Positions 22,309-41,908 of a stretch of 64,000 nt of DNA are shown piece after piece; the first letter of the stretch is position 1, and every line of letters begins with the position of its first letter. The translations under genes were made by a program, and so were the position numbers. This stretch comes from an uncultured Sphingomonadaceae bacterium (GTDB lineage: Bacteria > Pseudomonadota > Alphaproteobacteria > Sphingomonadales > Sphingomonadaceae), in NCBI GenBank assembly GCA_947489315.1, contig CANLCX010000002.1, forward strand, positions 620,001-684,000, written 5' to 3'. The notes below the pieces were generated by a model. That model was not told the DNA's origin. It searched no databases and saw only the letters and a program-made list of their open reading frames with translations.

Positions 22309-22336
22309 TATCAATGAGTGTGGCACTATTTTTAAA

Positions 22337-23233: not shown

Positions 23234-23250
23234 TTCTTCGTACATCAAGC

Positions 23251-23281
23251 TAATGCCCGCTTTCGGGATATTAAGGACTCC
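23251..23281. repeat. TGTCCGCTTT palindrome, copy C
   Basis: TAATGCCCGCTTTCGGGATA with a decayed right arm (AAGGACT), 17 bases after the stop of the phosphotransferase-like gene. Same variant as copies E, F1 and G (TAATGTCCGCTTTCGGGAT). Confidence 0.65.
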
Positions 23282-23489
23282 GGAATTGTTCCAAATAAGC
23301 AGCTATCGTGCAAATAGGGACCAACAGTCGAATTTGTACAATTCAACAACTGCCGCCGGTGCTAACTCCGATCTCGGAACGATATTTGCGACCCGTTGTT
23401 CCAATGCCCCGTTCGACTATCCCGGTCGGCGGGGCTTATTTTTTTAAGCTGATCTGCCCAACCCAATGCCTGCCTAGAAATCTTCTTGA

Positions 23490-23867: not shown

Positions 23868-24095
23868 CAGCTTTGTCTCTTCAGAAAACGGAACGAAGAC
23901 GCAAGGATGTCAAACTAGCGACAGCTGGAGGAGATTTCGGCAGATCCACTGCGAGCTCCGTCCTTAACTATGAACATCGTTGAGGTTGATCAGCTGTGAC
24001 AGCAGTGAGGCTCTGCAGCACGATGCGCGCGGAGGGTGTCACCAGCAAAAGCCGCAAAAATTTGTTCCCAAGAAGACATACACTCCCAAGTGGAC
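23868..24095. other. Intergenic region, nothing recognised
   Basis: About 230 bases between the DUF4038 remnant and the terminator of the small minus-strand gene. I see no supported coding frame; the frame at 23968-24216 minus runs through the terminator and is not believable. Confidence 0.4.
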
Positions 24096-24126
24096 AAAAA
24101 AAACGGCGGAAAGTCCCACCGTTTTT
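24096..24126 (-). terminator. Terminator downstream of the 34-aa ORF
   Basis: On the minus strand ACGGTGGGACTTTCCGCCGT is followed by eight T residues. The plus strand also has a T run, so it may act in both directions. It lies about 26 bases after the small ORF's stop. Confidence 0.75.
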
Positions 24127-24151
24127 GTTAACTTTTAGGCCTTTTTTCAGA

Positions 24152-24256
24152 CTAGTCCCAACTAGAACCACCGAAAAACCAGTCCCAGAATCCCTTGACA
24201 GGTTGATTCTTTTCAAGCAATTTTTTGCCTAAAGCTTTGGAATCAGGTGTATTCAT
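24152..24256 (-). CDS. Small protein of 34 aa, unrecognised
   Basis: ATG at 24256 with AAGGGG 10 bases upstream opens a 34-codon frame. It is hydrophilic at first (MNTPDSKALGKKLLEKNQ) and ends in an aromatic stretch VKGFWDWFFGGSSWD before TAG. The terminator follows and a promoter-like pair (TTGTTG, 17 bases, TACTAT) lies 50-90 bases upstream, so it may be an independent unit although it follows the CHASE2-EAL gene by 85 bases on the same strand. No family is recognised. A non-coding RNA at this locus is the alternative. Confidence 0.55.
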   Translation of the reverse strand: MNTPDSKALGKKLLEKNQPVKGFWDWFFGGSSWD

Positions 24257-24341
24257 AACTCGCACCCCTTGTTTTAACAACCAGCGACCTTGCTGAAGCT
24301 TAAAGATAGTATATACAAATATGGTTTACAACAAATTAATG

Positions 24342-26648: not shown

Positions 26649-27131
26649 ATGGTTACCACTTCGGCCACCTTTTTAAACGACCATGGTTAACAGTGTGTAA
26701 ACATCGAATCCCAATCATAGACAGTTGATATGTGTCACCATCTCCGCTTGTTGGGTTGTTTCACTTTCCGTCGTTCGTTTTCTTCGAAACCAGGCATTCA
26801 GGTCAGTTGACAATCAATTAGCATAGCGGAAAACTTCAATTATGTGAGGTTCCCGGCGCATTTCATTCTGACAATATCAACGAGCAAACTAGCATCACTG
26901 CAAAAAGGCTTCGCGAAAGCCAAGGTCAATTGATTGAGGCCCTTGTTATCGAATTGCAGACGGCTAAAACTTGGCGACGCATTTGTGTCCGAAGATTAGA
27001 AATAATCTTTGCCGTTGCACCATTCCTTTTACCACTAATCACTTCCACCAAAACCGCCGCCGCATGAAACCTACTACCAAACATCATGACTGATACTACG
27101 ACCATCCCTTAGTCCAAAATAGTCGAAGCCA
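26649..27131. other. Intergenic region with a start-less open frame
   Basis: A plus-strand frame from 26822 to TGA 27065-27067 has protein-like character (RLRESQGQLIEALVIELQ, then a hydrophobic segment EIIFAVAPFLLPLI) but no ATG/GTG; only TTG at 26930 could start it. It may be a gene remnant or chance. Nothing else is recognised in these ~480 bases. Confidence 0.35.
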
Positions 27132-27162
27132 GTGTCCCCTTTGGCCGCGAAAGCGGACATTT
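27132..27162. repeat. TGTCCGCTTT palindrome, copy D
   Basis: TGTCCCCTTT-GGCCGCG-AAAGCGGACA. It lies 25 bases beyond the premature end of the isochorismatase-like pseudogene. Confidence 0.75.
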
Positions 27163-27186
27163 AGGATTAGGCGCAGCAGAGAATTT

Positions 27187-27506
27187 TCAAGTCCAACCAA
27201 GCACTTCATCCAAATGCGTGCCGATGAAGGCGCTATTCTGCTCTTTTGTTATAATAGTTTCGCCAACTATCGGTGCGACCTCTGCCTTAATGCCATTCCA
27301 CGGGCCATGGCTATGGTAAGAGGACGTTGTTGTCGGTTCATCATGCTTTACATGCAACACCGGCCAGTTCTTCTGCCGCCAATGCGCGAGAAGACGTTGG
27401 ATGACTGTCACATAATTGGGATTGTTTTTCCATTCCATACCGGCTGATCAATTGCATCTTGAACATCAAGTATCACTAGAGGTGTCGGACCAATTTGAGT
27501 GCTCAT
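27187..27506 (-). pseudogene. Isochorismatase-family cysteine hydrolase, frameshifted and truncated
   Basis: From ATG 27506 the frame reads MSTQIGPTPLVILDVQDAID, the N-terminal strand of isochorismatase-like hydrolases with the catalytic Asp. It ends at a TGA soon after NGKTIPIM. The next frame continues the same protein: NNPNYVTVIQRLLAHWR, WPVLHVKHDEP, IVGETIITKEQNSAFIGT. One A missing from the A run near 27428 explains the shift. The product also stops at 27187 after HLDEVLGW, so the half with the catalytic Cys (VTTNNCV in relatives) is missing. Confidence 0.8.
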
Positions 27507-27587
27507 ATTATGCTTTGCCTTGGACAAAACGATACCGAAAATTTAAAGCACAGAAGCTAGTGGCGCTGACTTCTTTATTTAAAATGC

Positions 27588-27619
27588 TAATATCCGCTTT
27601 TGGGATGAAGCGGTCACTA
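27588..27619. repeat. TGTCCGCTTT palindrome, copy E
   Basis: TAATATCCGCTTTTGGGAT followed by GAAGCGGTCACTA. Same variant as C, F1 and G; together with F1 it brackets the SDR gene. Confidence 0.75.
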
Positions 27620-27742
27620 ATCTCTCGCGTCTCCTAAGAGCGTAAAAGAGAAGATCAGAAATCGGAAGGCGTCAAAAATACTATGCCTCACAGCACGGCG
27701 AGGAGATTGGAATTGCTGTTTTTTTAATCAAAAGCTACTCAA

Positions 27743-28780
27743 TTAAGAAAGATACTCGCTAAAAACATCTTCCGAATAGGCCCACAGGCGATCTGCAAGC
27801 TCATCATTCTCTAGATTATTCTGACCACCGACAGACACCGGATTGGAGTCAAAAAGGAAATGTCCGGAAACATTTGTCATATTTGGATGAGCGGCCGCGT
27901 AACAATGAGTGGCGGAACCTTCCCCTACATTTCTGGCTATGACTGGACCAAGAACAGTAAAACCGGTTCGTGTTGCCCAATCCATTCCACGTGATATGTT
28001 TGTGTTCACAAGGCCAGGGTGCAGCGCATTTGAGGTTACACTGCTACCCTCATATTTCTGTGCCAGTTTGCGAGAGAATAGGGCATTCGCCAGTTTTGAT
28101 ACGCCGTAAGCCTCCCACCCGTCATACTCGCGGCTGGCATCGCTCTTGCCGAGCGCATCAAATCGGATACCCTCTGCAGTAGGCCGACTATAAGATGCCG
28201 AACTGCTTACATGGACGATCCGCCCTTGTTTGGAGGCTTCAACCGCTGGCAGGACTTTATTGGCAAACAGAAAATGGCCTAGATAATTGACGTAAAAGGT
28301 CTTCTCGATCCCGTGCACTAATTTCTTCCCGGGTCGACCGCTAATGCCTGCATTCAAAATAAGCCCATCCAACGGAACACCCAGCGCCAACATATCTGCA
28401 GCACACTTCAAAATTGACTCGGGGTCCATCAATTCCATAATCAATGGCGTTGTTGTACCGCCCACGCTGGCGCATGCGGTCTCTGCCTTCTTGGCGGTTC
28501 GCCCCGTGCCGATTACATGCGCACCGCGCTTCGCCAGCACCCTCATCGTTTCATAACCCATTCCGGAATTGCATCCGGTAACGAGAATATTTTTACCCGA
28601 CAGGTCAAGACCTTCGGTTACTAGTTCCGCGGTGGACTCGGCATCAAAACCGTTGTTGGTAAATCCAGCTTTCGGTGAGAGCGGCCACTTCGGGGGTTTT
28701 GTAGACTGATAGTATACGGTTGCAGATGTGGCACCCACTGCCGCGACGCCCGACAGCGCCAAAAATTTTCTTCGATTCAT
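27743..28780 (-). CDS. Tat-exported SDR oxidoreductase
   Basis: A 345-aa short-chain dehydrogenase of the retinol-dehydrogenase/WW-oxidoreductase type with a twin-arginine signal (NRRKFLALSGVAAVGATSA) in front. Cofactor loop TGCNSGMG, LNAGISG, HVSSSAS and the catalytic YGVSK are all intact, so it should be an active NAD(P) enzyme exported folded to the periplasm, an unusual location for an SDR. ATG at 28780 has GGGAG 8 bases upstream. A perfect palindrome in its promoter region (28828-28839) suggests TetR-type control. It is bracketed by palindrome copies E and F1. Confidence 0.88.
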   Translation of the reverse strand: MNRRKFLALSGVAAVGATSATVYYQSTKPPKWPLSPKAGFTNNGFDAESTAELVTEGLDLSGKNILVTGCNSGMGYETMRVLAKRGAHVIGTGRTAKKAETACASVGGTTTPLIMELMDPESILKCAADMLALGVPLDGLILNAGISGRPGKKLVHGIEKTFYVNYLGHFLFANKVLPAVEASKQGRIVHVSSSASYSRPTAEGIRFDALGKSDASREYDGWEAYGVSKLANALFSRKLAQKYEGSSVTSNALHPGLVNTNISRGMDWATRTGFTVLGPVIARNVGEGSATHCYAAAHPNMTNVSGHFLFDSNPVSVGGQNNLENDELADRLWAYSEDVFSEYLS

Positions 28781-28827
28781 CAATCAACTCCCAGGGTCTC
28801 AAACTAGTCTCGGCCATCATTATATAA

Positions 28828-28839
28828 TGAACGCGTTCA
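28828..28839. promoter_or_regulatory. Perfect palindrome in the SDR promoter (TetR-type operator?)
   Basis: TGAACGCGTTCA, a perfect 12-base palindrome next to a TATAAT-like box (28822-28827 read on the minus strand), 48 bases upstream of the SDR start. This shape is typical of TetR/AcrR-family operators; no such regulator is encoded in the window. Confidence 0.5.
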
Positions 28840-28883
28840 CCATACAAGATAGCATTTATAGGTTCTCACTTTAGCCTAGTTTT

Positions 28884-28913
28884 TAATGTCTACTTTCGGG
28901 ATGAAGTGGTCAT
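28884..28913. repeat. TGTCCGCTTT palindrome, copy F1
   Basis: TAATGTCTACTTTCGGGAT followed by GAAGTGGTCAT; only seven bases separate it from F2, making a tandem pair between the SDR and the methyltransferase. Confidence 0.8.
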
Positions 28914-28920
28914 CCCGCTA

Positions 28921-28956
28921 GCGTCTGCTTTGGGCGCAAAAGCGGACATTGGAATT
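28921..28956. repeat. TGTCCGCTTT palindrome, copy F2
   Basis: GCGTCTGCTTTGGGCGCA, then AAAGCGGACATTGGAATTT. Almost identical to copy B, which likewise precedes an intact plus-strand gene. Confidence 0.85.
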
Positions 28957-29021
28957 TGTGAGTGTGTTCTAATGGCATATGGAATATATTGATTGTTTAA
29001 GGTTGAAGAGAGCGAAGCGCG

Positions 29022-29753
29022 ATGACAGCTAAATATGATAGCATTGGGATCAATTATTCGCAGCTTCGTAAACCTGATCCCCGGATTGCAACTGTGATCG
29101 ATAACGCACTTGGAGAAGCTAAAACTGTTCTCAATGTTGGCGCGGGAACTGGTTCTTATGAACCTACTAATCGCGAGGTGGTTGCCCTCGAACCTTCGCA
29201 AGAAATGATCAATCAGCGCGATCAATCAGCTGCGCGTGCGATACAGGGTTACGCAGATGACTTGCCCTTCGATGACAATATTTTCGATGCCTCGATGGCA
29301 ATACTGACAATCCATCATTGGCCTGACAAGCAAAAGGGGTTGCAAGAAATGCGTCGCGTAACTCGCGGCGCGATTGTTCTGCTAACTTTCGATCCATCAC
29401 ATCGCGGAACCTGGCTGACCGACTATCTTCCAGAACTAGTGGCGCTGGATGAAGCCCAAATGCCTGCTATGTTGGATTATGAACGGTGGTTGGGTGAAGT
29501 GGAGATCACTACCTTGCTGATACCGCACGATTGCACCGACGGTTTTCTTTACGCGTATTGGAGAAGACCTTCGGCCTATCTGGATGCGCGAATAAGGGCT
29601 GGTTCATCATCTTTTTGGGCGATTGAAAATGCCGATGAAGGTTTCAGAAAATTGGCGGAAGATATAAAAAGCGGCGAATGGGAAAGACGCTATGCCGATA
29701 TCTTAGCGCTCGACGCGATTGATGCGGGCTATCGCATAGTTATAGCCCGCTGA
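29022..29753 (+). CDS. Class I SAM-dependent methyltransferase
   Basis: A 243-aa Rossmann methyltransferase of the UbiE/Methyltransf_11 kind: TVLNVGAGTGSYEP (AdoMet loop), VVALEPSQEMI, GYADDLPFDDNIFDASMAILTIHHW. The C-terminal lid is rich in Trp/Tyr. The substrate is unknown. It is an isolated gene between palindrome copies F2 and G, in the same arrangement as the phosphotransferase-like gene between B and C. Confidence 0.88.
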   Translation: MTAKYDSIGINYSQLRKPDPRIATVIDNALGEAKTVLNVGAGTGSYEPTNREVVALEPSQEMINQRDQSAARAIQGYADDLPFDDNIFDASMAILTIHHWPDKQKGLQEMRRVTRGAIVLLTFDPSHRGTWLTDYLPELVALDEAQMPAMLDYERWLGEVEITTLLIPHDCTDGFLYAYWRRPSAYLDARIRAGSSSFWAIENADEGFRKLAEDIKSGEWERRYADILALDAIDAGYRIVIAR

Positions 29754-29768
29754 TATTTTGGAAACCGT

Positions 29769-29796
29769 TAATGTCCGCTTCCGGAATTTAGCGGGC
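29769..29796. repeat. TGTCCGCTTT palindrome, copy G (degenerate)
   Basis: TTAATGTCCGCTTCCGGAAT followed by TTAGCGGGC, 15 bases after the methyltransferase stop. This is the last copy of the cluster. Confidence 0.65.
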
Positions 29797-29884
29797 GCCC
29801 CCCTCCCTTTGACATAAGAGTAATTATCAACCTTTTGGATACTCGTAGCAGTAACAAATCCGTAGTCCGTGCGTTTAGACCATA

Positions 29885-31108
29885 CTAGATTAGTCCAACT
29901 GCAGCGCTGCGCTCAGCAAGATTGATAACTACAGCTTCCAAGTCGGCAATGAACAACTTTTTACTTTTAAAGCGCCTCACATTGTGAATTTCCGAAATAA
30001 GGCGAATACTCTTCGGTGAATCTTTGTTTTCGCCAAGAGCCCTTTCCGGACGCTCTAAGAATTCCGTAACTGCCAGCGTAACATCTGCATTACGACCCTT
30101 CCAATTGAAGGAAATTTTTCCATCCTCCAATTTCATACTTTCGCAGACTTCCACCGCCCAATTGATCGAAGCTCGAGCTTTCTTTCCTGCGGGCGGTTGC
30201 AAGTCTAACGCAGCACTCAACTGGCAAGATCTCAGGCTAGCTAAAACCCTAATCATCGACTGTGTTTCCCTGAAGTGGTAATTTGCATCCAATTGATAAT
30301 TACCCGCCAACTCACTTTTATCATATTTGACCCGGTCTTCAGCAGATGCTCTCATTCCTGCGCTATGTCTCATCTCTACATGGCTTTTGGTGGAGTAAAT
30401 GAGCTTGGCACCCAAATCGCGTCTTTCCTGTTGCCAACCATGTACAATCTCGGTGATGCCTCGAGTGTTGGTTGAAAACCCAAGAGCAGTAGCAGCAGAT
30501 TCTACAAATTTTGGCCACTCAGCGGGCATAGAATCATAAGTCAATATACCAGATTCTTCGTACCAGAAATAATCGAGACAATGTCGCAACACGGCCTGTT
30601 CTGTTTCATTGCACTTTGAGTCCGAATCTAAAAATAATTCCATAAACGTACGTACTTCTGCCCATGAAAAGTGCAGTACATCCTTTCCTCTGCGCTTTCG
30701 TGCATCGAGATGATAGGGTAACTCGGCAGGACTACTGGCAAACTCATTAGAAATGCAAATAACAGCATCTACGCCCAATTTTCTTGCCAATTCTGTATAA
30801 CCCAATATCTGGTCGGGCTTGATAGTGAACTTGTCAGCCTTTGCTTCTACAAAAGCAGACCATTTCGCGGTTCCACGAGTGCAAACGATCAATCCATCGG
30901 GTCGAACATCACTATACTGATCAGATGGGTAATGAGGTTCCATATAACTTTCGTAGGAACATGATCTACCCGAACCATATTTACAACGCTCTAAAAAGGC
31001 TCCCCTAAATTCCGGTATAATTTCGAGAGCTGCCATAAAAACGGATAGCAGTTTTCTTGAAGTGTGGAATAAGTTTGGGATGGTTATTCCGAGATGACAG
31101 TTCTTCAA
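29885..31108 (-). CDS. PD-(D/E)XK nuclease-like protein (apparent N-terminal frameshift)
   Basis: About 407 aa. Residues ~68-104 carry a PD-(D/E)XK signature: RPDG (P70, D71), AFVEAK (E88, K90), then DQILGYTELA with the conserved Gln/Tyr helix. The rest is not a family I can name; the locus suggests a defence or DNA-processing role. The listed start is TTG at 31108 without a ribosome binding site. In another frame, tandem ATGs at 31121/31118 with AGGG upstream begin MMKEIEELSSRNNHPKLIPH, which fits better as the true N-terminus. A one-base shift around 31050-31085 would join the two. Confidence 0.7.
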   Translation of the reverse strand: MKNCHLGITIPNLFHTSRKLLSVFMAALEIIPEFRGAFLERCKYGSGRSCSYESYMEPHYPSDQYSDVRPDGLIVCTRGTAKWSAFVEAKADKFTIKPDQILGYTELARKLGVDAVICISNEFASSPAELPYHLDARKRRGKDVLHFSWAEVRTFMELFLDSDSKCNETEQAVLRHCLDYFWYEESGILTYDSMPAEWPKFVESAATALGFSTNTRGITEIVHGWQQERRDLGAKLIYSTKSHVEMRHSAGMRASAEDRVKYDKSELAGNYQLDANYHFRETQSMIRVLASLRSCQLSAALDLQPPAGKKARASINWAVEVCESMKLEDGKISFNWKGRNADVTLAVTEFLERPERALGENKDSPKSIRLISEIHNVRRFKSKKLFIADLEAVVINLAERSAAVGLI

Positions 31109-31270
31109 TTTCTTTCATCATAAGCCCTATTTTCATCAAATATCAATACCTTCAATGAACTCCCGCTTGGATCAAGTCCAGAATAGTTACAATAACTTAG
31201 AGCATCATCATTATTACCGCTTCTACTCGCAGCTGGTGTAGGAGAGATTATTGGCATACAAACCTAAGAA

Positions 31271-32578
31271 ATGCTCAGGCCTGTAAGCCGTATTGGAGAT
31301 TTGAATTTGCAAACCACAACGAACGCTAACCCCAGTATAAATTGCCCTGATTGCGGGACAGAAATTAAACTGAATGAAACTCTTGCTGGCCCGCTAATTG
31401 AGCAAACCCGAAGAGAGTACGAGGCCAAATTGACCGCGAAGGACTCAGCCAATGAAAAACGCGAACTAGAAATTGCAGGAGCCCAAGCTGAGTTGGCAAA
31501 GCAAAAAGAAGATCTAGACGATCTAATAGCTGCCAAGCTGAAAGTAGCAAAAGAACAGATTGCCGAAAAAGAGGCAAAAAGAGCAAAAGACCTCGTGGCC
31601 ATCGATCTAGACGCTCGTCAAAAAGAGATCGCAGACCTTAAAGAAATAGCAAAAGACCGTGAAGTTCGGCTGCAAGACGCCCAAAAACAACAGGCTGAAC
31701 TGATGAAAAAGCAGCGAGAATTAGATAACGCACGCCGAGAACTCGAAGTCACAGTGGAAAAACGTGTAGATCAATCGCTGAGTGAGATAAGAACAAAGGC
31801 CAAAAAAGAAGCCGAGGAAAGCCTTTCGCTAAAACTAACCGAAAGGGACGACAAAATTTCAGCGATGCAGAAGCGCATTGAGGATCTAATGAGAAGAGCT
31901 GAACAGGGTTCACAACAATCGCAAGGTGAAGCACTTGAATTGCATTTGGAGAATATTCTCTCGGAAAAATTTCCAATAGACAAACATGAACCCGTTGCGA
32001 AAGGAGAATTCGGCGGTGATCTATTGCAGCGCGTTGTGGGGACTGGTGGTAGCGAATGCGGAACAATCCTTTGGGAATCCAAAAGAACAAAAAATTGGAG
32101 CGACGGTTGGCTAGCTAAACTTCGAAATGACCAGCGCGCAGCCAAGGCTGACATGGCGGTGATAATATCCACCGCCCTACCGGACGGCGTATCCTCATTT
32201 GACCTCATCGATGGTGTGTGGGTTGCCAGTCCAAACTACGTCATTCCTCTTTCAATCGTATTGCGCCAATCATTAATGGAAGTCTTTTCTTCAAGAGCGG
32301 TTACCACAGGCCAAGAAACAAAAATGCAATTAGTTTATGGCTATCTGACGGGTCAACAATTTCGACACCGTGTAGAAGCAATTGTAGAACGATTCTCAGA
32401 TATGAGTGATGATCTAAACCGTGAAAAGAAAGCGATGACTCGTCTTTGGGCAAAAAGAGAACAGCAGATTAATGCTGTAATTGAATCGACAGTTGGAATG
32501 TATGGAGATCTTCAAGGGATTGCAGGGGTTGCAATGCAAGAGATCGAAGGGCTAGAAGTTCCGTTATTAGAGGAATAA
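31271..32578 (+). CDS. DUF2130 domain protein (coiled coil with nuclease-like domain)
   Basis: 435 aa: a half zinc-ribbon (NCPDCGTEI), a highly charged coiled coil (~45-215), then the DUF2130 domain (~220-430; GEALELHLENILSEKFP, KGEFGGDLLQRV, GTILWESKRTKNWSDGWLAKLRNDQ). The D..ESK arrangement in DUF2130 resembles a PD-(D/E)XK core, and the build recalls RmuC. The biological role is not established. It is divergent from the PD-(D/E)XK-like gene and convergent with the giant helicase, suggesting one functional island. An internal TTG start is possible. Confidence 0.85.
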   Translation: MLRPVSRIGDLNLQTTTNANPSINCPDCGTEIKLNETLAGPLIEQTRREYEAKLTAKDSANEKRELEIAGAQAELAKQKEDLDDLIAAKLKVAKEQIAEKEAKRAKDLVAIDLDARQKEIADLKEIAKDREVRLQDAQKQQAELMKKQRELDNARRELEVTVEKRVDQSLSEIRTKAKKEAEESLSLKLTERDDKISAMQKRIEDLMRRAEQGSQQSQGEALELHLENILSEKFPIDKHEPVAKGEFGGDLLQRVVGTGGSECGTILWESKRTKNWSDGWLAKLRNDQRAAKADMAVIISTALPDGVSSFDLIDGVWVASPNYVIPLSIVLRQSLMEVFSSRAVTTGQETKMQLVYGYLTGQQFRHRVEAIVERFSDMSDDLNREKKAMTRLWAKREQQINAVIESTVGMYGDLQGIAGVAMQEIEGLEVPLLEE

Positions 32579-32740
32579 ACTTTTGACTAACGCGAGCTTT
32601 GCGAAGTTGCCATGTGACCGACGCTTCGAAGCATCCATTCCAGCATTGAGTATTGTTGTTTCCTTCGAAGATGACCTTCTGGTGAAAGTTCAAGTTCTCC
32701 AATCAAAATTCCGGCATTGTCTCAATTCGATGAACACAAA

Positions 32741-35700
32741 TTATCGATCTAGCAATACCGCCTCTATGCGTGTTCGAGCACTAACAGCCAACCGCTGAAT
32801 TCCTAGCTGCCTTGCAACGGCAAATGGGATATCTTCCACCTCCCCCAAATGTCGAGCAGCAAGACGAATCTCTTCGGCTGGAATGTCTTCAATGGATCGC
32901 GGGTTATCGCCATCTCCTGTCCGACGACAGTCATCAAAGTAACTGCGAGGGTCCTGTTGAACCTCTCGCGTCGGCCAATAGAAATTGAGCTTACCTGACT
33001 CCGTGTGGCAATAATAATTCCGGTTTGCGAGAACGACAATGCGCTGCCGAATCAAGCTTCCAGCCCGCTTGAAGTCATGGGCACGTGCGATACGTTGGAC
33101 TAGAACGAGATCACGAATAGGTGCTTCGACCGACATAACGTGCTCAATCAGCTCCATTAATATCTCAGTATAATGGTCATCGTGAAAATTGTCGGGAGAG
33201 ATTTTGTTTGCAAAATCTTCAAAACTGGCAATTTTGTATATTCTTTCAGTTTTGCCCTCATCAACTAAGTTTACTTTTGCCGCGGGCGCAACTTGCTCAG
33301 CGAAAAGCGTGCCAACGTTTGCGATGCCATCCATGTTCTCTTGCTTCGGCGTAAATTGACCAGCAGCAACATTATTCGAAACCGCTGGAGCTCTATGAGC
33401 TTCATCTTCATCATGTTTACCGTCAACCAACATATCGCCCAGTACTTCAGTTTGGGTAACCTCATCACTGACTACATCGTTTGTATTTTTCGCTTTCTCA
33501 GCCTTGGCTCGACTTTCCTCAAGAAGGGTTCTAAGTGCGTCATCCACTCGTTTTATGGCACCTTTCGCGTTAATCCATACATCGGTGGACCATATACGGA
33601 GCATAGACCAGCCAAGCCCCTCCAATACCGCTTGACGCACTTTGTCGCGATCACGGGCGGTTGCTGCGCTGTGATACATTGCGCCATCACATTCCACTCC
33701 GGCGAGATAGTCGCCAGGTCGATCAGGATGAACAATTCCCAGATCAATGCGAAAGCTGGATACGCCAATTTGTGGATGAACCTGCCAACCGAGTTCTTCC
33801 AAACCTCCTTTTACCATGTCTTCAAGTGGCGATTCTGTTTCTCCGACAGAACCTTGATGTGCTTCAGCAAGTGATTTCGGCCCTCGGTGCGCAAACTCGA
33901 CGTAGTGCTTTAGGTCGCGAACCGCCCGAGCGGAGGTCCGGTTCAAGTCAATCATGCCAGGATCAAACGAGGTAAAAAGCAACACTTCATCTCGCGCTCG
34001 TGTCACTGCCACGTTTAGTCGGCGCCAGCCTCCCTCCCGATTCAACGGTCCAAAATTCATAGACATCGTTGGCGCACCCGGTTCGACCGGCCCATATCCA
34101 ATGCCTAATATGATCAAATCGCGCTCGTCGCCCTGCACCGTCTCAAGGTTTTTCACAAAAACAGGCTCGGCACAATCATCGCCGAAATATTCCTCCAAGG
34201 CTGGTTTCGCTGAACGACGCTTGTCGAACAAGTCTTCAATCAGTGCCTGTTGCTGGCTGTTAAGCGTAACAACACCTATCGATTTACTACCGCTAGACAA
34301 CAGGCGCTTCTCAACTTCCGCCACAATAGCTTCAGCTTCGATGGTATTGGTCTGGCCTTTACCCTTTGCATAGATCCCCTCCACACGCCGCCAATGCACC
34401 GCACTGTCCTTTGTCTCTGGAGCTGGAAATGTGACCAGCTTATTGTCGTAATATTGGGAGTTGGAGAACGCGATCAGCGAGTCATGGCGGCTGCGATAGT
34501 GCCAATCTAGACTATGCTGTCGCAATCCGGCGGTGAGGCATTCCTCCAAAATACTCTCAAGATCTTCGTCAATATCTATATCAACCGCAGCAGATCCCTT
34601 TGTGAAAAAGCTAGTCGGCGGCATTTGGCGAGGATCACCGGCTACGATGAGCTGTTTTCCGCGCGCAATCGAACCAATCGCATCCCAAGGAGTGATCTGC
34701 GATGCCTCGTCAAAGATTACCAGATCGAACAACTCATGATCGGGAGGAAGATATTGTGCGATGGAAAGTGGACTCATTAACATACAGGGAGCGAGCGCGG
34801 TAAAATCGGTGCCCATTTCCTCGGCGAGCTGACGTACCGGCTTGTGCATGCGTTGTTTCGACAGTTCGTGCCTCAGTATCCCGAACCCCGATTTTCGTGC
34901 AACATCGTCTTTATCGGGCAAGCCTTGCATAGCACGCGCACGAACATAAAGAGCGGTTAATTTACCGATTTCGTCTGTGAGATTGCGGAAGGTTTCAATG
35001 CGATCTGCGTGTACACTCGACACAAATTGTTTCAGCAGCGGTTCCGCGTCGATCGCCCAATCACCAAACCATTTTGCATAAGCCGCTTCAAATGTTTTCA
35101 GAACATCTACTTGAACTCTCGCCTTTCCATTCTCTGCAATATGGTCCGCTAGAAGCTTTAGACCCGCGCTTTGGGCTTCCGCGCAAACTGTGTTCCATTG
35201 GCAAATCGCGTTCAAAGCCGATTGCTGGTTAATAATAGTATTGCAAGCTGTTTTCAGTTTTTCGAAATCGAGGAACTTTTCGTCACTCGCCGCCGCTTTC
35301 AAAAATCGCTCTGCAGCAGTCTCATATCCTTCGAGCGCATTTTCCAACGTCTGGCGCGCCTGAAAAACACTGCTACCCTCCTGCAATAGATCATTTGCAT
35401 CAACAACTAGCCCGCGGACTTTACCATTCCATTCTGCAAGATTGGCGGGAGATTTAGCCATGTTGGAAATGGCAGTCCTTAATACACCAGCCTGTTCTGC
35501 TACGATATTCAGTGTTTCTGGATCGCTTGCCAAATAATCAAAACCCGGAACATCAGTGATTTTCTTCGCAAGCTTATCAAGACTATCACGATGCTCTGAC
35601 AGACGCTCCAACACGGGTAAATCAAATTCTGGATCAGGCTTGTTCGCCGTGCCACCACTTTGCATTAGTTGACGAATAGTTTTCCGCTTCCCTAGCGAGC

Positions 35701-38700
35701 TCATGGGCCAATATCTTTCTTCCGCCGCGGCCCACTGTTGTGTCAATGAACCGTAATCGACGGCTATTTCGGCGTCGTCATGATAAGTGACGGAAAGTTG
35801 CGTGCGATCGCGCCAATATGTTTGACAAAGTTCGGCATATCGCTTGGCTTCATCACATTTATCTCGGTAATCTGGTGCAAAGGCAAATGCGAAATTTTGA
35901 CCCGCAGTCTGTGTCATAGCAGTCAGGAGCGCTCCAAATGCATGTGCACCGGCGGCATCCTGCACCTCCGGCATCAGTCCGCTAGCAGTTTCGGCTTTTT
36001 GAATTGCAGCCTCAAGTGATTGAACCGCAGATTTCAGTTCTCCAGCAGCGGCAACAATCTCACCCTGCCAACCGTTACTCCATTCCCGTTGATCAATTCC
36101 GCCAAATGTGTTCAGCGGCGTCTTTGGAAGGCCTGCAAAAACCAACTCCAGTCGTCTTGCGATATCGCGCATTGACTCCAATTGGACCTGATTGTGTTTC
36201 AACCCAGCGTCCCAATCAAATTTCGGCATATGCGCATCATGATCACGTGCAACGCGGCCAATCGCGTTATGGATCGTTAAGCCATTTGGCCAACGGTTGT
36301 GTAGGACCGCCACAACTGCATTCAGCTCATCGCGCAGCAGTCTAAGTCGGCGTGTTTCCTTGTCCCATTCCTGCTGTGATAATGTGCCGCGTACATCCCA
36401 TGCACTTTCCAGTTGTTTCAGCACTTCTGTCTTGGTGCTTTTGTGACTGTGCAACTCGAGGCATAGCTCTCCCAGCCCCACTTCTTCAAGGCGCCGGTAG
36501 ACCACGTCCAGCGCGGCTCGTTTCTCCGCAACAAAAAGCACGCGGCGGCCTTCAGCCAGATTTTGAGCGATCATATTTGCGATAGTTTGAGATTTCCCGG
36601 TGCCCGGCGGCCCATCCAGCACAAAATCATGCCCGTTCGCCGAAGCAATAATCGCGGATAGCTGAGATGAATCAGCAGGAAGTGGTGCAAACAGATCTGC
36701 AGGATCACAGCGGTCATCAAGACCGTTTGGATTGGGAAACGGATTTTCCGCATCATTATTTGCTGGAGTTGAGAAACTCTCTTTACTGCCCTCAAGCAAA
36801 TGCTTCACAACCGCATTTTCCTTGAGAAGCTCTCCTCGATCCACCAAATCCTTCCACATCAAATATTTGGAGAAAGAAAATATCCCGAGAACGATTTCTG
36901 GACTGACGTAAAAACCAGGAGAATCTTTGATCGAATGTCGTACCATGTTCCAGATACCGTTAACGTCAATCCCGCTGGAGTCTTTTGGCAATTCGCCATG
37001 CAAGCTCGGAATTTCAATCTCGAAATCTTGGCGCAACAGCTCCAATAACGTTAAATTGAAGCGCGGCTCGTCCTGATGCATTTCAATCTTCATGCCTGAT
37101 CGGACACTTTTGCGAATCAAAGTAATCGGAAGAAGTATCAGCGGAGCTCGATAGGATTTCTCATCTTCTGCATTTTTCTTCCAGCTGAGGAATCCCAAAG
37201 ATAGAAACAATGTATTTGCGCCACCCTCGTTCAAGTCAGATCGCGCGCCTCGATAAAGTTTGATCAATTCAACATCGAGCTTTTTGGAATCGAGATTGGA
37301 ATAGATTTCCTTGCTTTCCAAACCTTGCATCGCATGCTCTTTTTCAAGATCTTCGCGAGTCCGGCTGCGATGGATCTCGACATCTCTTCCGCCTATTTCG
37401 AGATCAGGCATTGTTTTCAGCGTGAATCTTTTTCCGTCGGCAAGCATGTCTTCGAGTCGTCCTGGATCAGGGCAAACTAAAGACACCGACCGACTTCGAG
37501 CTGGCAGGTTAAGCATCCGGTTTCGCGCAGTTAGATCGAGTAATTTTCGCTGCCACAGAACCAGTCGATCAACTTCATCCGGCTGGTCAACTTCTATTCT
37601 TGTGTCAAACGCAGAAAGCGTCGGAGCTTCATCAAGCGCTTCGGCGACACGAATGTCCGCATCACCATTCTGATTGATGCTGGTGTCAAAATAAGTGGCC
37701 AGCGGTTTGATCTTCTGCATCCTTGCTCGGCGAATATCTACGGCGAGTACAAACTTGTCTTCGCGATCTTCAGAAATTTGGCGCCTAGCCTCTGTAACCG
37801 CATCTCTGAATCGAGGCACTGGATTGGCCGTTACCAGCGTCGTCTCAAACAGCACCAACTCTTCCAAATCCACACGCGTACGTACCGCGGAGACTTCGTC
37901 GGTCGTCAGTTGAGCAAATTCCTGCGGCTGCAACCAGGCGCCTGCAAACGCGTGACCTTCGGTTAACACAACGACCGGGTTCAAACCGGCTTGCTCAATT
38001 GCAGCGGTGAAAAGCAGAGCTGTGTCGAGACACGTTCCAATGCGGCCATCAAGTATCGCGCTCGGTGTTCGAATTTTCTGACCGGATTGTTCAAAGCTAG
38101 CTGGCGGCAGAACATAGCTAAGGTCTAAGCCCGCTACCGCAGACCAAATCGCCGATACAATTTCATAAACTCGTGACTTTAATCCGCTATTGTATCCATC
38201 AATCGCAGCTTCCTTGCCAGCGCGACGCAGAACATCTGAGGCTGCCTTCAGGACTTTATCCGTTGCTGGATCGTTCGGCATTGCAAAAGCTGCCAACAAT
38301 TCGGGCATAGCCTCGCCGCCCCATTCATCGCTGGCGAGCAATACGAACTCAACTTTTGTTTTGGCTAGAATTAGAGCGTAATTTTGAACTCTGGAATCCT
38401 GAACCCTGTTCTCTATTGGAGCGACTTCCTCATCTTTCTCCAAAACAAATTCAAGGTAACCGCGCTCGCTTTCAGAGAGGTCCTTCACATAGTTTGCGCC
38501 AATATCAACGTTTCGATCCAAGATGCTTAACGTCTCACCGGCTCCAACGTGATCAATCATCCACTGGCGTTCTGTTATGAAATCAGGATCTGATATGAGC
38601 TTTAATCGAACATTTGTAAGTGCTTCAGAAGTATCGTTGATTATTGCAATTTCGCGTATAGGTGGCACGGAATTTTGCTGTGACACAAATCCGATTTTAT

Positions 38701-38734
38701 CGGCGGTATCTACTTCAATCCGAATATTTGTCAT
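32741..38734 (-). CDS. DUF4011 / SF1 helicase / Vsr-like nuclease / DUF3320 giant protein
   Basis: 1997 aa. Residues ~225-265 hold a transglutaminase/papain-like Cys and His pair (GRIGTCLDTALLF, TEGHAFAGAW). DUF4011 begins near 390 (LWQRKLLDLTARNRMLN). Walker A is at ~708 (LDGPPGTGKSQT), Walker B at ~1335 (DLVIFDEASQITPWD), and helicase motif WHYRSRHDSLIAF near 1415. A Vsr/MTES_1575-like nuclease core lies near 1660-1720 (RIDLGIVHP, GVECDGAMYHS, RDRDKVRQ), and DUF3320 from ~1840 (YTEILMELIEHVMSVE). Proteins of this architecture are found in defence islands and have been proposed as single-gene antiphage systems. Confidence 0.92.
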   Translation of the reverse strand: MTNIRIEVDTADKIGFVSQQNSVPPIREIAIINDTSEALTNVRLKLISDPDFITERQWMIDHVGAGETLSILDRNVDIGANYVKDLSESERGYLEFVLEKDEEVAPIENRVQDSRVQNYALILAKTKVEFVLLASDEWGGEAMPELLAAFAMPNDPATDKVLKAASDVLRRAGKEAAIDGYNSGLKSRVYEIVSAIWSAVAGLDLSYVLPPASFEQSGQKIRTPSAILDGRIGTCLDTALLFTAAIEQAGLNPVVVLTEGHAFAGAWLQPQEFAQLTTDEVSAVRTRVDLEELVLFETTLVTANPVPRFRDAVTEARRQISEDREDKFVLAVDIRRARMQKIKPLATYFDTSINQNGDADIRVAEALDEAPTLSAFDTRIEVDQPDEVDRLVLWQRKLLDLTARNRMLNLPARSRSVSLVCPDPGRLEDMLADGKRFTLKTMPDLEIGGRDVEIHRSRTREDLEKEHAMQGLESKEIYSNLDSKKLDVELIKLYRGARSDLNEGGANTLFLSLGFLSWKKNAEDEKSYRAPLILLPITLIRKSVRSGMKIEMHQDEPRFNLTLLELLRQDFEIEIPSLHGELPKDSSGIDVNGIWNMVRHSIKDSPGFYVSPEIVLGIFSFSKYLMWKDLVDRGELLKENAVVKHLLEGSKESFSTPANNDAENPFPNPNGLDDRCDPADLFAPLPADSSQLSAIIASANGHDFVLDGPPGTGKSQTIANMIAQNLAEGRRVLFVAEKRAALDVVYRRLEEVGLGELCLELHSHKSTKTEVLKQLESAWDVRGTLSQQEWDKETRRLRLLRDELNAVVAVLHNRWPNGLTIHNAIGRVARDHDAHMPKFDWDAGLKHNQVQLESMRDIARRLELVFAGLPKTPLNTFGGIDQREWSNGWQGEIVAAAGELKSAVQSLEAAIQKAETASGLMPEVQDAAGAHAFGALLTAMTQTAGQNFAFAFAPDYRDKCDEAKRYAELCQTYWRDRTQLSVTYHDDAEIAVDYGSLTQQWAAAEERYWPMSSLGKRKTIRQLMQSGGTANKPDPEFDLPVLERLSEHRDSLDKLAKKITDVPGFDYLASDPETLNIVAEQAGVLRTAISNMAKSPANLAEWNGKVRGLVVDANDLLQEGSSVFQARQTLENALEGYETAAERFLKAAASDEKFLDFEKLKTACNTIINQQSALNAICQWNTVCAEAQSAGLKLLADHIAENGKARVQVDVLKTFEAAYAKWFGDWAIDAEPLLKQFVSSVHADRIETFRNLTDEIGKLTALYVRARAMQGLPDKDDVARKSGFGILRHELSKQRMHKPVRQLAEEMGTDFTALAPCMLMSPLSIAQYLPPDHELFDLVIFDEASQITPWDAIGSIARGKQLIVAGDPRQMPPTSFFTKGSAAVDIDIDEDLESILEECLTAGLRQHSLDWHYRSRHDSLIAFSNSQYYDNKLVTFPAPETKDSAVHWRRVEGIYAKGKGQTNTIEAEAIVAEVEKRLLSSGSKSIGVVTLNSQQQALIEDLFDKRRSAKPALEEYFGDDCAEPVFVKNLETVQGDERDLIILGIGYGPVEPGAPTMSMNFGPLNREGGWRRLNVAVTRARDEVLLFTSFDPGMIDLNRTSARAVRDLKHYVEFAHRGPKSLAEAHQGSVGETESPLEDMVKGGLEELGWQVHPQIGVSSFRIDLGIVHPDRPGDYLAGVECDGAMYHSAATARDRDKVRQAVLEGLGWSMLRIWSTDVWINAKGAIKRVDDALRTLLEESRAKAEKAKNTNDVVSDEVTQTEVLGDMLVDGKHDEDEAHRAPAVSNNVAAGQFTPKQENMDGIANVGTLFAEQVAPAAKVNLVDEGKTERIYKIASFEDFANKISPDNFHDDHYTEILMELIEHVMSVEAPIRDLVLVQRIARAHDFKRAGSLIRQRIVVLANRNYYCHTESGKLNFYWPTREVQQDPRSYFDDCRRTGDGDNPRSIEDIPAEEIRLAARHLGEVEDIPFAVARQLGIQRLAVSARTRIEAVLLDR

Positions 38735-38872
38735 TTATGCCCCAGAATACTTATTTCGAATACTGGACCAATTCTGCAAATTGATCTTTGTGATTCGAGT
38801 TGAAGTCTAACTGGGTTTTTAGAAAAAGTATAACTAACATAAAAAGAGTAAGATCACTCTCATGTTTTGAGA

Positions 38873-39106
38873 TTATACTTCGGCTAAGGAAGCCAAAATC
38901 ACCGCGCTGGCGGCCATTAAGAGGATTTCAATTTCCTGCCCGATCGATTGAAGATCGGCAACAGCTTCAACAATATGATCAGATGTGGTTTGGGGCGATT
39001 GTCCTCCAATCGCCACCTCATGAGCATCCTCAATCCTAGCGGTCACCAGTGCAAACAATGCGGTTCGCACCTTTATCGGATCAATTTCATCGTCTGTATC
39101 TGTCAT
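38873..39106 (-). CDS. Small acidic protein, unrecognised
   Basis: A frame of 77 codons from ATG 39106 (MTDTDDEIDPIKVRTALFA): an acidic N-terminus, then amphipathic helices with a hydrophobic C-terminal end (IEILLMAASAVILASLAEV). An in-frame ATG at 39142 would add 12 residues. It lies between the giant helicase and the recombinase module and may belong to the mobile module. No family is recognised. Confidence 0.5.
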   Translation of the reverse strand: MTDTDDEIDPIKVRTALFALVTARIEDAHEVAIGGQSPQTTSDHIVEAVADLQSIGQEIEILLMAASAVILASLAEV

Positions 39107-39311
39107 GTGCCAACCCATGCTCGACTTGGCATGAAAGTCCATATGCAGCTTTTAGAATTACGCGGATAAACCACTGGACTTCGGCGTTGGTTCGAGCATT
39201 GCTGTTGGTGTCGCAGGAATCTAAAGCGACAGGCCGCCCGCTCTATTTAGCGATCCGCGGCTCGGGTCAGTGGGAGCGCTGGAAAGTCCAGCACCAAGCT
39301 GGAGAACCTCA

Positions 39312-39560
39312 ATGTCATCAACCAAATTAAAACCTCAAACCAAGTCCGCAAAAGTCATCACGCTGCTGTCGCGAGCGAAAGGCGCTACTCTCGATGAGAT
39401 ATGCAAAGCAACAAACTGGCAGCAACATAGCGTCCGTGCATTTCTGACAGGCCTGCGCAAGAAGGGTTATGTGCTCGCACGCGAACAGCGTGGTGAAGAT
39501 GGCACAGCCTACCGCATCACACAAAACCCAAGCAATCAACGCGCCAAAGGTTCAGCATGA
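39312..39560 (+). CDS. DUF3489 domain protein (winged-helix-like)
   Basis: An 82-aa protein (KSAKVITLLSRAKGATLDEICKATNWQQHSVRAFLTGLRKKGY) with the DUF3489 helix-turn-helix look. GGAG precedes the ATG. In sphingomonads and rhizobia DUF3489 genes sit just before DUF2924 and a large serine recombinase, as here; the stop overlaps the next start (ATGA). It is probably a DNA-binding accessory factor of the recombinase. Confidence 0.88.
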   Translation: MSSTKLKPQTKSAKVITLLSRAKGATLDEICKATNWQQHSVRAFLTGLRKKGYVLAREQRGEDGTAYRITQNPSNQRAKGSA

Positions 39561-40015
39561 CCGTGCTCGACGATCGATTGATGGAACTCATGACCATGCC
39601 CCCCGCCCAGTTGCGGTCTGCATGGCGCGATACGTTCAAGTCACCCGCCCCTGATATCGGACCGGACCTGCTCCGACGCGGCATCGCCAATCGACTGCAG
39701 GAACGTGTCCACGGTAGCCTGACCGGTGCTACCAAACGTGAGATCGAGCGCCTTCGCAAGCGCATCGAACGAACCGGCAAAGCTGGTCACATGCATGCAA
39801 TCTCCCTCAAGACAGGAACGCGGCTCGTTCGATCATGGAATAGCAAAAGCTATCACGTACTGGTCTGTGATGATGGCTTTGAGTTTGAAGGCCGACATTC
39901 TGCAAGCCTCAGCCATATCGCACGCGAGATAACCGGCGCGCATTGGTCTGGTCCTCGGTTCTTTGGATTGAAGAAGCGGAGTGGATACAAGCCGAAAGTG
40001 CTCGCAAATGGTTGA
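39557..40015 (+). CDS. DUF2924 domain protein
   Basis: 152 aa, with the DUF2924 features: LMTMPPAQLRSAWRDTF, PDLLRRGIANRLQERVHG, then a compact beta domain (GTRLVRSWNSKSYHVLVCDDGFEFEG, SLSHIAREITGAHWSGPRFFGL). Its function is not established, but it is a constant companion of large serine recombinases. ATGA overlap with DUF3489 upstream and an 8-base overlap with the recombinase downstream mark a tight operon. Confidence 0.92.
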   Translation: MTVLDDRLMELMTMPPAQLRSAWRDTFKSPAPDIGPDLLRRGIANRLQERVHGSLTGATKREIERLRKRIERTGKAGHMHAISLKTGTRLVRSWNSKSYHVLVCDDGFEFEGRHSASLSHIAREITGAHWSGPRFFGLKKRSGYKPKVLANG

Positions 40016-41630
40016 ACGCACCAAACGCAAGCGGTGTGCGATCTACACTCGCAAATCGACAGAAGATGGCCTGGAGCAAGACTTTAACAGTCTGCATGCA
40101 CAGCGAGAAGCTTGTGCCGCCTATATATTGAGCCAAGCTAGCGAAGGTTGGGAAGCTGTTCCTGAGCTTTATGATGATGGTGGATGGTCTGGCGGTAACA
40201 TGGACCGCCCAGCCCTTGTCCAACTGCTTGACGATGTCAAAGCCGATAAAGTCGATATCATCGTGGTCTATAAAGTTGATCGCCTAACCCGTGCGCTGGC
40301 GGACTTCGCAAAAATCGTCGAGATACTAGATGAAAACGAAGCGAGCTTCGTCAGCGTGACTCAATCGTTCAATACAACAACCAGCATGGGAAGACTGACA
40401 CTTAACGTGCTTCTCTCCTTCGCGCAGTTTGAACGCGAAGTCACCGGCGAACGCATCCGCGACAAAGTTGCGGCATCTAAGAAGAAAGGCATGTGGATGG
40501 GCGGTGGTGTTCCATTCGGATATGATGTGAAGGAACGCCAGCTCCTGATCAATAGGGCTGAAGCTGAAAAGGTGCGGCTTGTTTTTGAGCGATATGCACA
40601 GCTTAAATCGGTACCACAGCTAGTTGATGAACTGGCTGCAAAAAATATTAGGACCAGAACCCGCGTATCTAAATCCGGACGGATCGCCGGTGGCATCCAC
40701 TTCAAAACAGGTACTTTGACCCATCTTCTCCAGAACCCGGTTTATGTTGGAAAGGTTCGACATAAGGACAAAATCTATGATGGAATGCATCAGCCCATCA
40801 TTTCGGATGAGCTGTTCCAACGTGTTCAATCCATCTTTGCAGAAAACCGGCACGATAATGCGCTCGGTAAGAAGAGCCGCAACCCCAGTCTGCTAACAGG
40901 CATCATAACCGATCCGGATGGCAAGCCAATGACACCGACCCACGCGATGAGAGAAACTAAGCGCTATCGCTACTATGTGACGCGAACATCTCCTGGAGAC
41001 AAATCTAACAAATGGAGATTACCCGCTGGAGAAATCGAACGATTCGTAATTGAAGCGATTGCGAAACAGCTCGTTAGAGGTAGTTGCATGGGAACTGATG
41101 ATGCCCGAGAATTGGAAGTTCAGGTCGATCTGGATCGAAAAACGTCAATCGACCTGCCCGCGATGTCTATCACCGAACAACGCGAATTATTGCTCAACTG
41201 TAAAACACGCGTTGCTATCAACGTCGAAACAATCTCAATCGAATTTGAGCCTCCCAATCAGGATCAACCGGTCAACCTTTCGATCGAAGCAAAACTAGTC
41301 AGCAGAGGATCAGAGGTGAGATTAGCAATTGCACTGGATGATGGACCTATCAAACGTGATCCCGATCCCGTGTTGCTCAGACTGATCGCTCACGCTTTCG
41401 CAGCGCAGGACCTTCTGGTTCGAGGAACATCCTCGCCAATGGTTAATCACTATAAGCAGCGGCATTTGCAGCAGCTTGTCAGGCTAAGCTTCATGGCTCC
41501 CGACATTATGTCTGCGATAGTTGATGGAACACAACCCCCTGACCTCACAGGACGCAAGATCATGCGTATCAACAAAATCCCACTAGACTGGGCCGGGCAA
41601 CGCAAGATGTTTGGGTTTCCAGCCACTTAA
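40008..41630 (+). CDS. Large serine recombinase
   Basis: 540 aa. The resolvase-type N-terminal domain has the nucleophile region YTRKSTEDGLEQDFNSLHAQREAC and YKVDRLTRAL. The recombinase domain (GGGVPFGYDV, TGTLTHLLQNPVYVGKVRHKD) follows. The zinc-ribbon Cys pairs often present in this family are not evident. Such enzymes integrate or excise mobile elements or invert DNA. With DUF3489 and DUF2924 it is the probable mobilising unit of the island to its left. ATG at 40008 overlaps DUF2924. Confidence 0.93.
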   Translation: MVERTKRKRCAIYTRKSTEDGLEQDFNSLHAQREACAAYILSQASEGWEAVPELYDDGGWSGGNMDRPALVQLLDDVKADKVDIIVVYKVDRLTRALADFAKIVEILDENEASFVSVTQSFNTTTSMGRLTLNVLLSFAQFEREVTGERIRDKVAASKKKGMWMGGGVPFGYDVKERQLLINRAEAEKVRLVFERYAQLKSVPQLVDELAAKNIRTRTRVSKSGRIAGGIHFKTGTLTHLLQNPVYVGKVRHKDKIYDGMHQPIISDELFQRVQSIFAENRHDNALGKKSRNPSLLTGIITDPDGKPMTPTHAMRETKRYRYYVTRTSPGDKSNKWRLPAGEIERFVIEAIAKQLVRGSCMGTDDARELEVQVDLDRKTSIDLPAMSITEQRELLLNCKTRVAINVETISIEFEPPNQDQPVNLSIEAKLVSRGSEVRLAIALDDGPIKRDPDPVLLRLIAHAFAAQDLLVRGTSSPMVNHYKQRHLQQLVRLSFMAPDIMSAIVDGTQPPDLTGRKIMRINKIPLDWAGQRKMFGFPAT

Positions 41631-41832
41631 AAACTTCCCAATTCCGCAAGTGCATCTGGACTCCAATATTTGGGCCATTGAGACACTTGGCCAATTTGCC
41701 CCAACATCGTGGATGACAAATGCTCTCTGGCGACAAGGCTCACGCATCATCGTCTACTAACTGACAGAAATATAGGGATAAAACCCGCACTCCATTCACT
41801 TGGTGTGAGACTTTGAATTCTAAGAAAAAAAG
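41631..41832. other. Junction between the recombinase and tRNA-Phe
   Basis: A start-less plus-strand frame ending at TAA 41758-41760 (SNIWAIETLGQFAPTSW) looks protein-like but is not identifiable. No copy of the tRNA 3' end was noticed here or at the left side of the island, so tRNA-Phe cannot be shown to be the attachment site. Confidence 0.35.
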
Positions 41833-41908
41833 TGGTGCCCGAAGGCGGATTCGAACCACCGACACAGCGATTTTCAGTCGCTTGCTCTACCAACTGAGCT
41901 ATTCGGGC
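41833..41908 (-). tRNA. tRNA-Phe (GAA)
   Basis: A 76-base tRNA on the minus strand beginning GCCCGAATAGCTCAG and ending GGGCACCA with encoded CCA. The acceptor arms pair, the anticodon loop is CTGAAAATC with anticodon GAA, and the T arm is GGTTCGAATCC. It lies about 200 bases downstream of the serine recombinase. Confidence 0.97.

Follow-up and report, generated by a model that had tools for sequence, protein, structure and literature searches.

A probable serine recombinase island at tRNA-Phe in a Sphingomonadaceae genome, with nuclease-like genes that appear to be independent cargo

Genes at the tRNA-Phe locus

The window analyzed here is a stretch of 64,000 nucleotides (G000:C2:620001-684000) from the genome of an uncultured Sphingomonadaceae bacterium, G000, which counts 3.88 Mb in 11 contigs. 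It carries three genes for nuclease-like proteins, followed by the gene of a large serine recombinase (LSR) and by a tRNA-Phe gene, and this report concerns the origin of that arrangement as a putative genomic island, tRNA genes being classic landing sites of such islands. The first gene (29885-31108, minus strand) encodes an orphan PD-(D/E)XK-like protein of 407 aa, designated P1; it is followed by the gene of a 435-aa DUF2130 protein (31271-32578, plus strand) and by that of a giant protein of the ProA family (32741-38734, minus strand, 1997 aa). A small open reading frame (ORF), ORF89 (38873-39142, minus strand, 89 aa), which has similar ORFs at the same place in relatives, is divergent from the recombinase module. 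The latter lies on the plus strand and consists of a winged-helix-like DUF3489 protein (39270-39560, 96 aa; Pfam DUF3489 79.9 bits), a DUF2924 protein (39557-40015, 152 aa; Pfam DUF2924 140 bits) and the LSR (39981-41630, 549 aa; Pfam Resolvase 126.7 bits and Recombinase 64.2 bits). From the LSR to the tRNA gene runs a segment that we call the right arm of the element (41631-41832, plus strand), which can be aligned to right arms from other elements, some of them copies that are away from any tRNA. The tRNA-Phe(GAA) gene, called by ARAGORN at 41833-41908 on the minus strand, is the putative integration target, and its 3' end appears on the plus strand at 41833-41838 as TGGTGC, a hexamer common to element ends and seen at tandem junctions in two relatives, G030 and G018.

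Except for ORF89, which it does not mention, the ORFs and the tRNA gene were all found where a preliminary description, made from the sequence alone, had placed them. Pfam returned the following domains: DUF2130; DUF4011, AAA_11, AAA_12, REase_MTES_1575 and DUF3320 in the giant protein; DUF3489; DUF2924; Resolvase and Recombinase. Its broader claims of an accessory region, of nuclease-like proteins, of a giant belonging to a defence family and of a serine recombinase adjoining a tRNA gene were supported.

The recombinase module

The LSR is intact: it has the YTRKS and DRLTR motifs, and Resolvase and Recombinase domains that include the catalytic serine motif. Relatives were surveyed in 296 genomes of the order, a sample in which G000 is included and counted for each gene surveyed. 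Matches to the LSR at E <= 1e-130 were found in 40 genomes, and all 52 matches listed, 3 of them in G000, were examined. DUF2924 is encoded upstream of the LSR in 51 of these loci and DUF3489 in 42; viral contigs gave 185 related LSR loci, of which the best 80 were taken, and all 80 have DUF2924 upstream. ORF89 is conserved beside the module in most of the relatives having it. According to two papers, DUF2924 partly matches the RAMA DNA-binding domain (PMC11342252), and a recombinase lies directly downstream of a DUF2924 gene in a Wolbachia phage WO region (PMC10299305). The DUF2924 protein is a possible DNA-binding partner of the recombinase.

Two groups of known recombinases resemble the window LSR in having Resolvase and Recombinase domains. 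One is gp31 of Wolbachia phage WO, to which it is 35.9% identical. The other comprises the cassette recombinases CcrA, CcrB and CcrC; CcrB is its best NCBIfam match by score, but all three scores stay below the cut-offs (145.5 bits against 900 for CcrB, 90.8 against 700 for CcrA, and 73.8 against 900 for CcrC). SCC elements target rlmH, whereas the target of the window element would be the 3' end of a tRNA gene.

G000 contains two further LSR copies at G000:C2:1010076-1011584 and G000:C4:360161-361405, each with one internal stop; they adjoin tRNA-Thr(CGT) and tRNA-Thr(GGT).

tRNA genes beside the recombinase

Within the genus, an LSR match adjoins tRNA-Phe in 18 of the 29 loci whose flank was examined, over at least 289 aa in 14 cases and over a shorter length in 4; two more genomes of the genus gave no usable tRNA-Phe locus. 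Across the order, 41 of the 52 loci have a facing tRNA gene, that is, one on the opposite strand with its 3' end first, at a distance of 185-263 bp from the end of the LSR, in one and the same orientation in 41 of 41. These tRNA genes represent 13 anticodons: Leu-GAG was met 12 times, Thr-CGT 7, Thr-GGT 4, Phe, Lys and Ser-GGA 3 times each, and Met and Arg-TCT twice each, with single loci for Thr-TGT, Arg-CCT, Ser-GCT, Val-TAC and Glu-TTC. In the aligned junctions, the element meets the tRNA gene at the first base of its 3' end, with TGG (CCA). Among the 11 loci that have no facing tRNA, we read 4 as having a tRNA-like 3' fragment after TGGTG and 1 as having the left end of another element. 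A control set of 291 ORFs, each 300 aa or longer, contained none with a facing tRNA at such a spacing.

When the tRNA species was mapped as a label on the LSR tree, 26 changes were needed, compared to a mean of 35.3 for shuffled labels, and none of 200 shuffles gave a number as low. The label thus clusters on the tree and yet changes 26 times, which indicates that targets are inherited but often switched.

Ends and contents of related elements

Tandem elements in G018 and G030 reveal both ends: the right arm finishes with ...AAAAAGTGGTGC, and the left end is GTGGTGCGCGACGCAGTC. Past the common TGGTGC, the tandem junctions continue TGGTGCGCGACGCAG, while the tRNA continues TGGTGCCCGAAGG; these elements have only about TGGTGC, a hexamer containing the CCA end, in common with the tRNA. 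A left-end motif, TGGTGCG(C/T)GACGCAGT(C/T) with GAAC..GTCTC, was met repeatedly, at loci from several genomes. Exact matches to the corresponding pattern were found in 7 genomes, and G013 has a correctly placed match with a single mismatch. No displaced 3' fragment of the tRNA was found at a far end, the window having no left end and the relatives sharing only about TGGTGC.

Six stretches run from the left-end motif to tRNA-Phe, measuring 23 kb (G029), 28 kb (G024), 29 kb (G030), 32.5 kb (G018), 60 kb (G013) and 69 kb (G027); the last two may each contain several elements. On its far side, the G024 element is flanked by sequence that aligns with tRNA-Phe flanks free of the LSR, in G016 (84% over 1334 bp) and in G028 (77% over 1241 bp). 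G024 has a second element, of 33.3 kb, from a left end of the same motif to tRNA-Leu-GAG, and the LSRs of its two elements, at tRNA-Phe (the 28 kb one) and at tRNA-Leu, are 46.6% identical. Of 13 left-end loci, 8 have a gene with N6/N4 methylase and ParB-like matches close to the left end, counting the locus of the query itself. Tyrosine recombinase domains were found neither in 5 of the 6 bounded tRNA-Phe stretches nor in the tRNA-Leu element of G024, and the only PF00589 match within the window is xerC.

Cargo differs among the tRNA-Phe elements, and P1, DUF2130 and ProA occur in none of the flanks fetched. In the cargo of four sister elements, matches to 54 PADLOC families were found at E <= 1e-10 (86/87 called proteins), many from the same few proteins and with Hachiman HamA/HamB among the families listed, compared to 4 families from the 67 proteins of a right-flank control; the set of 87 omits one very long ORF piece, L198:7782-20000. 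The 114 proteins of two larger elements gave 4 PADLOC families at E <= 1e-20, and Pfam identified efflux, metabolic and other genes in the sister-element cargo. We therefore rejected the idea of a dedicated defence island, given the few defence families in the larger elements and the efflux and metabolic cargo; the label 'defence island' of the preliminary description was too narrow, the cargo of related elements being mixed. The omitted piece is part of an apparently continuous ORF of about 4800 codons in the G029 stretch (L198:7782-20000 and L199:1-2226), near M50 peptidase and HlyD matches.

Origin of the island

We consider it probable, at about 0.8, that a tRNA-Phe island, the right-hand part of which lies in the window, was put in by the LSR, and that the nuclease-like genes are independent cargo. 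From the anatomy of the locus, its conserved motifs, the element ends and the tRNA association, all read from sequence, we infer how the recombinase acts and where it crosses over. The LSR, encoded together with DUF2924 and DUF3489 partners of the DNA-binding type, would have inserted the island at the 3' end of tRNA-Phe, most likely by joining attP to the chromosome within about TGGTGC. This crossover region would comprise the CCA end and three acceptor-stem bases, so that the tRNA gene would be kept intact, and related recombinases would act likewise on a wide range of tRNA genes. In a complete element, the conserved left end TGGTGCG(C/T)GACGCAGTC would come first, often with a ParB-methyltransferase gene after it, followed by variable cargo and then ORF89-DUF3489-DUF2924-LSR. 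In G000 the left end is gone, and the element is therefore probably stuck.

A number of observations weigh against this scenario. A search of G000 for the conserved left end found none, and the left-end methyltransferase had only a 24% match there (E 1e-8), with no close copy; the window element would therefore be truncated or rearranged, and, the left end being missing, its own borders are deduced from relatives. Left-end matches with two mismatches are partly due to chance, since a backward control also matches in several genomes. The bounded stretch of G029 has no LSR match at its tRNA-Phe, in G018 and G027 the LSR arm and the tRNA are some hundreds of bases apart, and the final 100-160 bp or so beside the tRNA are unaligned in the empty-site comparison of G024 with G016 and G028. 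Defence cargo is patchy, as the two larger elements illustrate, and the 52 LSR loci were counted uncollapsed and include close relatives. The tRNA-Phe element of G024 contains one broken tyrosine recombinase. Finally, in viral contigs a facing tRNA was found 171-265 bp away from the LSR in only 6 of 55 usable loci, and the tRNA habit may therefore not extend to the wider LSR family; either many of these contigs stem from unintegrated DNA or were trimmed, or other sites are used in the wider family. The left-end pattern had 0 matches in viral contigs.

Two other origins were considered, both of which we regard as improbable. A tyrosine integrase that was lost later, or that acts in trans, could have placed the islands at tRNA genes, the LSR being a passenger gene at the end of the element. 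The tRNA-directed islands already known do use tyrosine integrases, according to PMC4383910, and the broken gene in the G024 tRNA-Phe element fits this view; against it stand the lack of tyrosine recombinase domains in nearly all bounded stretches and in the tRNA-Leu element, the position of the LSR as the gene adjoining the tRNA at a steady distance, the mere 6-7 bp or so that element ends and tRNA have in common, and the clustering of tRNA labels on the LSR tree. Alternatively, tRNA neighborhoods could be merely tolerated spots, and the recombinase would read intergenic sequence rather than the tRNA gene. The few bases common to element and tRNA and the weak association in viral contigs agree with this, but the uniform spacing, the single orientation, the aligned junctions, which start with TGG exactly where the tRNA 3' end starts, and the empty control all speak against it.

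Limits of the island in the window

The accessory stretch, at 21751-38800 (no strand assigned), was delimited by the end of similarity to xerC flanks, by its low G+C and by the lack of convincing counterparts in the tRNA-Phe flanks of relatives. G+C is 0.43-0.50 over 22-39 kb, compared to 0.51-0.56 from 42 kb to the right end of the window, and DNA similarity to the xerC flanks of 7 relatives ends at about 21.75-21.79 kb. Genes of the 22-38 kb region were found at convincing identity in none of the 18 tRNA-Phe flank loci with matches, which gave only weak paralogue matches. The left border of the window element was sought by repeats and by the left-end pattern and was not found; it would lie somewhere between about 21.75 kb and the recombinase module, and all or only part of 21751-38800 may belong to the tRNA-Phe element, depending on the border.

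The distance from xerC (20839-21750) to tRNA-Phe (41833-41908) is 20 kb in the window, compared to about 90-400 kb or more in relatives that have both on the same contig; from this difference we conclude that G000 has been rearranged around the island. xerC was tried as the other flank of the island and abandoned, since the relatives with mapped positions for both genes do not have xerC next to tRNA-Phe. A palindromic element with 33-nt arms that are 91% complementary lies at 20708-20796 and has many dispersed copies in G000 and in the genus.

Three nuclease-like genes, probably without a common system

The P1 family is present in 15 of the 296 genomes and DUF2130 in 6; ProA was found at E <= 1e-100 in 35, of which 12 are above the curated cut-off. 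P1 and ProA have 3 genomes in common besides G000, whereas their totals would predict about 1.6, and G000 is the only genome in which DUF2130 occurs together with either. When the surroundings of relatives were inspected, no second gene of the three was found in any of 14 P1, 18 ProA, or 5 and 21 DUF2130 neighborhoods, several of these loci being short; the ProA loci came from the 11 other genomes above the cut-off and from 7 of the rest. In the window, P1 and DUF2130 are divergent and DUF2130 and ProA convergent, and the three genes are therefore not one operon. They would thus be independent, mutually unrelated cargo, nothing found joining them into one system.

A new multi-gene defence system, in which P1 and the DUF2130 protein act with the giant helicase-nuclease, is suggested by three genes with nuclease-like motifs standing side by side within 9 kb of a low-G+C island, but is made highly improbable by the empty neighborhoods, the restriction of DUF2130 co-occurrence to G000 and the opposed transcription. 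The link among the three genes implied by the preliminary description thus found no support, in keeping with its own caveat that independent genes could have been gathered by one island. It had also called the combination no named system known to it; no three-gene system was indeed found, but the giant protein itself has a name, ProA, in NCBIfam. For defence biology the lesson is a sobering one, namely that neighbors in one island need not share a system.

The giant protein matches positions 3-1903 of the 1903 in the NCBIfam model NF058533, 'anti-phage protein ProA', with 2106.8 bits where the cut-off is 1500, and it matches the PADLOC candidate PDC-S37 with 1178.9 bits; judged by its sequence, it is a full-length member of the NCBIfam ProA family. 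Our literature search did not find a paper from which the name ProA comes. The domains are ordered as transglutaminase-like, DUF4011, SF1 helicase, Vsr-like nuclease and DUF3320. In an alignment with 8 relatives that are 41-54% identical, the window copy has the transglutaminase Cys/His, the Walker A motif and the Vsr-like D...ECDG...YHS all intact; Walker A and the Vsr-like motif are present in 9 of 9 sequences, and Cys/His is lost in 2 of 9 (L130 and L131), both of which are shorter and keep the nuclease motif. Giants of the MTES_1575 type with an N-terminal HEPN were described in 2013 and predicted to attack invading DNA (PMC3710099). The window protein resembles them, as described there, in its order of transglutaminase-like domain, SF1 helicase, Vsr-like nuclease and DUF3320, but has no HEPN match in Pfam at E <= 0.01.

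The DUF2130 protein belongs to the DUF2130/COG4487 family (Pfam 254.2 bits, cut-off 26.7). Its AF2 model (mean pLDDT 76.6) has a short N-terminal part, a long coiled coil, a PD-(D/E)XK-like core and a helical C-terminus, and the pattern E227, D250, E269-x-K271, Q288 is invariant in 16 of 16 aligned sequences. A structure search with the model returned chains of MspJI, the SPARDA nuclease, Bax1, DdmD, PaqCI and EcoRV among its best, all weak, matches; ranks 1-3 were human Rep15, and there was no match at E <= 0.001. Our literature search found no tested function for DUF2130. Relatives have SIR2-HerA, AbiE, AAA_13 and ParB genes as neighbors, and a scan of 106 neighboring proteins from 19 loci, made without a control set, returned HEC-06, methyltransferases and a CARF regulator. 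At L144:6119-10512, a DUF2130 gene is followed by a SIR2-like and then a HerA-like gene on the same strand, and L150:7980-12368 has genes that match these three in size and order; DUF2130-SIR2-HerA is a possible three-gene operon.

P1 could be assigned to no family: there was no match at E <= 0.01 in Pfam, PADLOC and NCBIfam, nor at E <= 0.001 in PHROGs. We read it as PD-(D/E)XK-like because of a pattern of residues, E57, R-P-D71-G, E88-x-K90, Q100 and Y104, that is invariant in 12 of 12 aligned sequences. A model made from 3 sequences has a mean pLDDT of 68.9 and an order of helices and strands that fits PD-(D/E)XK; compared to the Protein Data Bank (PDB) with Foldseek, it gave no convincing match and no nuclease among the best matches listed, and profile searches against the PDB gave nothing useful. 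Relatives that are 26-28% identical occur in 14 genomes besides G000 and share neighboring genes across several genomes of the family; such shared neighborhoods are not typical of defence islands. P1 resembles TerD-linked stress proteins of actinobacteria, as a P1-like region is fused to TerD in both plasmid proteins checked, but differs in having no TerD domain and in being about 24-25% identical to them across 70-76% of its length. The two fusions are encoded on Rhodococcus and Streptomyces plasmids (L071:5074-7221 and L072:5155-7194), and a TerF-like vWA gene follows in L072. No homology between P1 and the DUF2130 protein was found by profile alignment, the hhalign probability being 0.8 on a scale of 0-100.

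As for the activities of the three proteins, we infer that ProA most likely works alone on invading DNA by means of its helicase and Vsr-like nuclease, with the transglutaminase-like domain in addition, and that P1 and the DUF2130 protein would each be a separate nuclease-like protein, acting plausibly against foreign DNA or in stress.

Comparison with known islands and implications

A 2015 paper on an island database states that only tyrosine recombinases are known to target tRNA genes (PMC4383910). Compared to the islands of the Islander kind described there, the window island is similar in adjoining an intact tRNA gene on its 3' side, and tandem stacking and mixed cargo are common to both; it differs in having a serine instead of a tyrosine recombinase, and only about TGGTGC in common with the tRNA instead of a long displaced tRNA fragment. 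The main text of a large LSR survey, in the version consulted, does not use the word tRNA (PMC10083194), and our literature search met no published account in which LSRs of this clade are linked to islands at tRNA genes, although later island surveys may mention them. Within the literature found, tRNA-gene integration would here be due to a class of recombinase to which it had not been attributed before.

More generally, we think it likely, though with less assurance than for the origin of the island itself, that there is an LSR clade with DUF2924 and DUF3489 partners that is dedicated to tRNA 3' ends and moves between tRNA species, 13 anticodons being represented, while its element-side arm stays nearly constant. 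The ability to move between tRNA species would follow from a common core that is essentially the CCA end and the neighboring acceptor bases. If this is true, island detection would change, as such islands would escape tools that depend on finding a tyrosine integrase together with a long tRNA fragment, and the clade would supply recombinases with short, conserved and naturally varied attB sites for studying target switching by serine recombinases. It would also break the rule that tyrosine recombinases alone specify tRNA genes.

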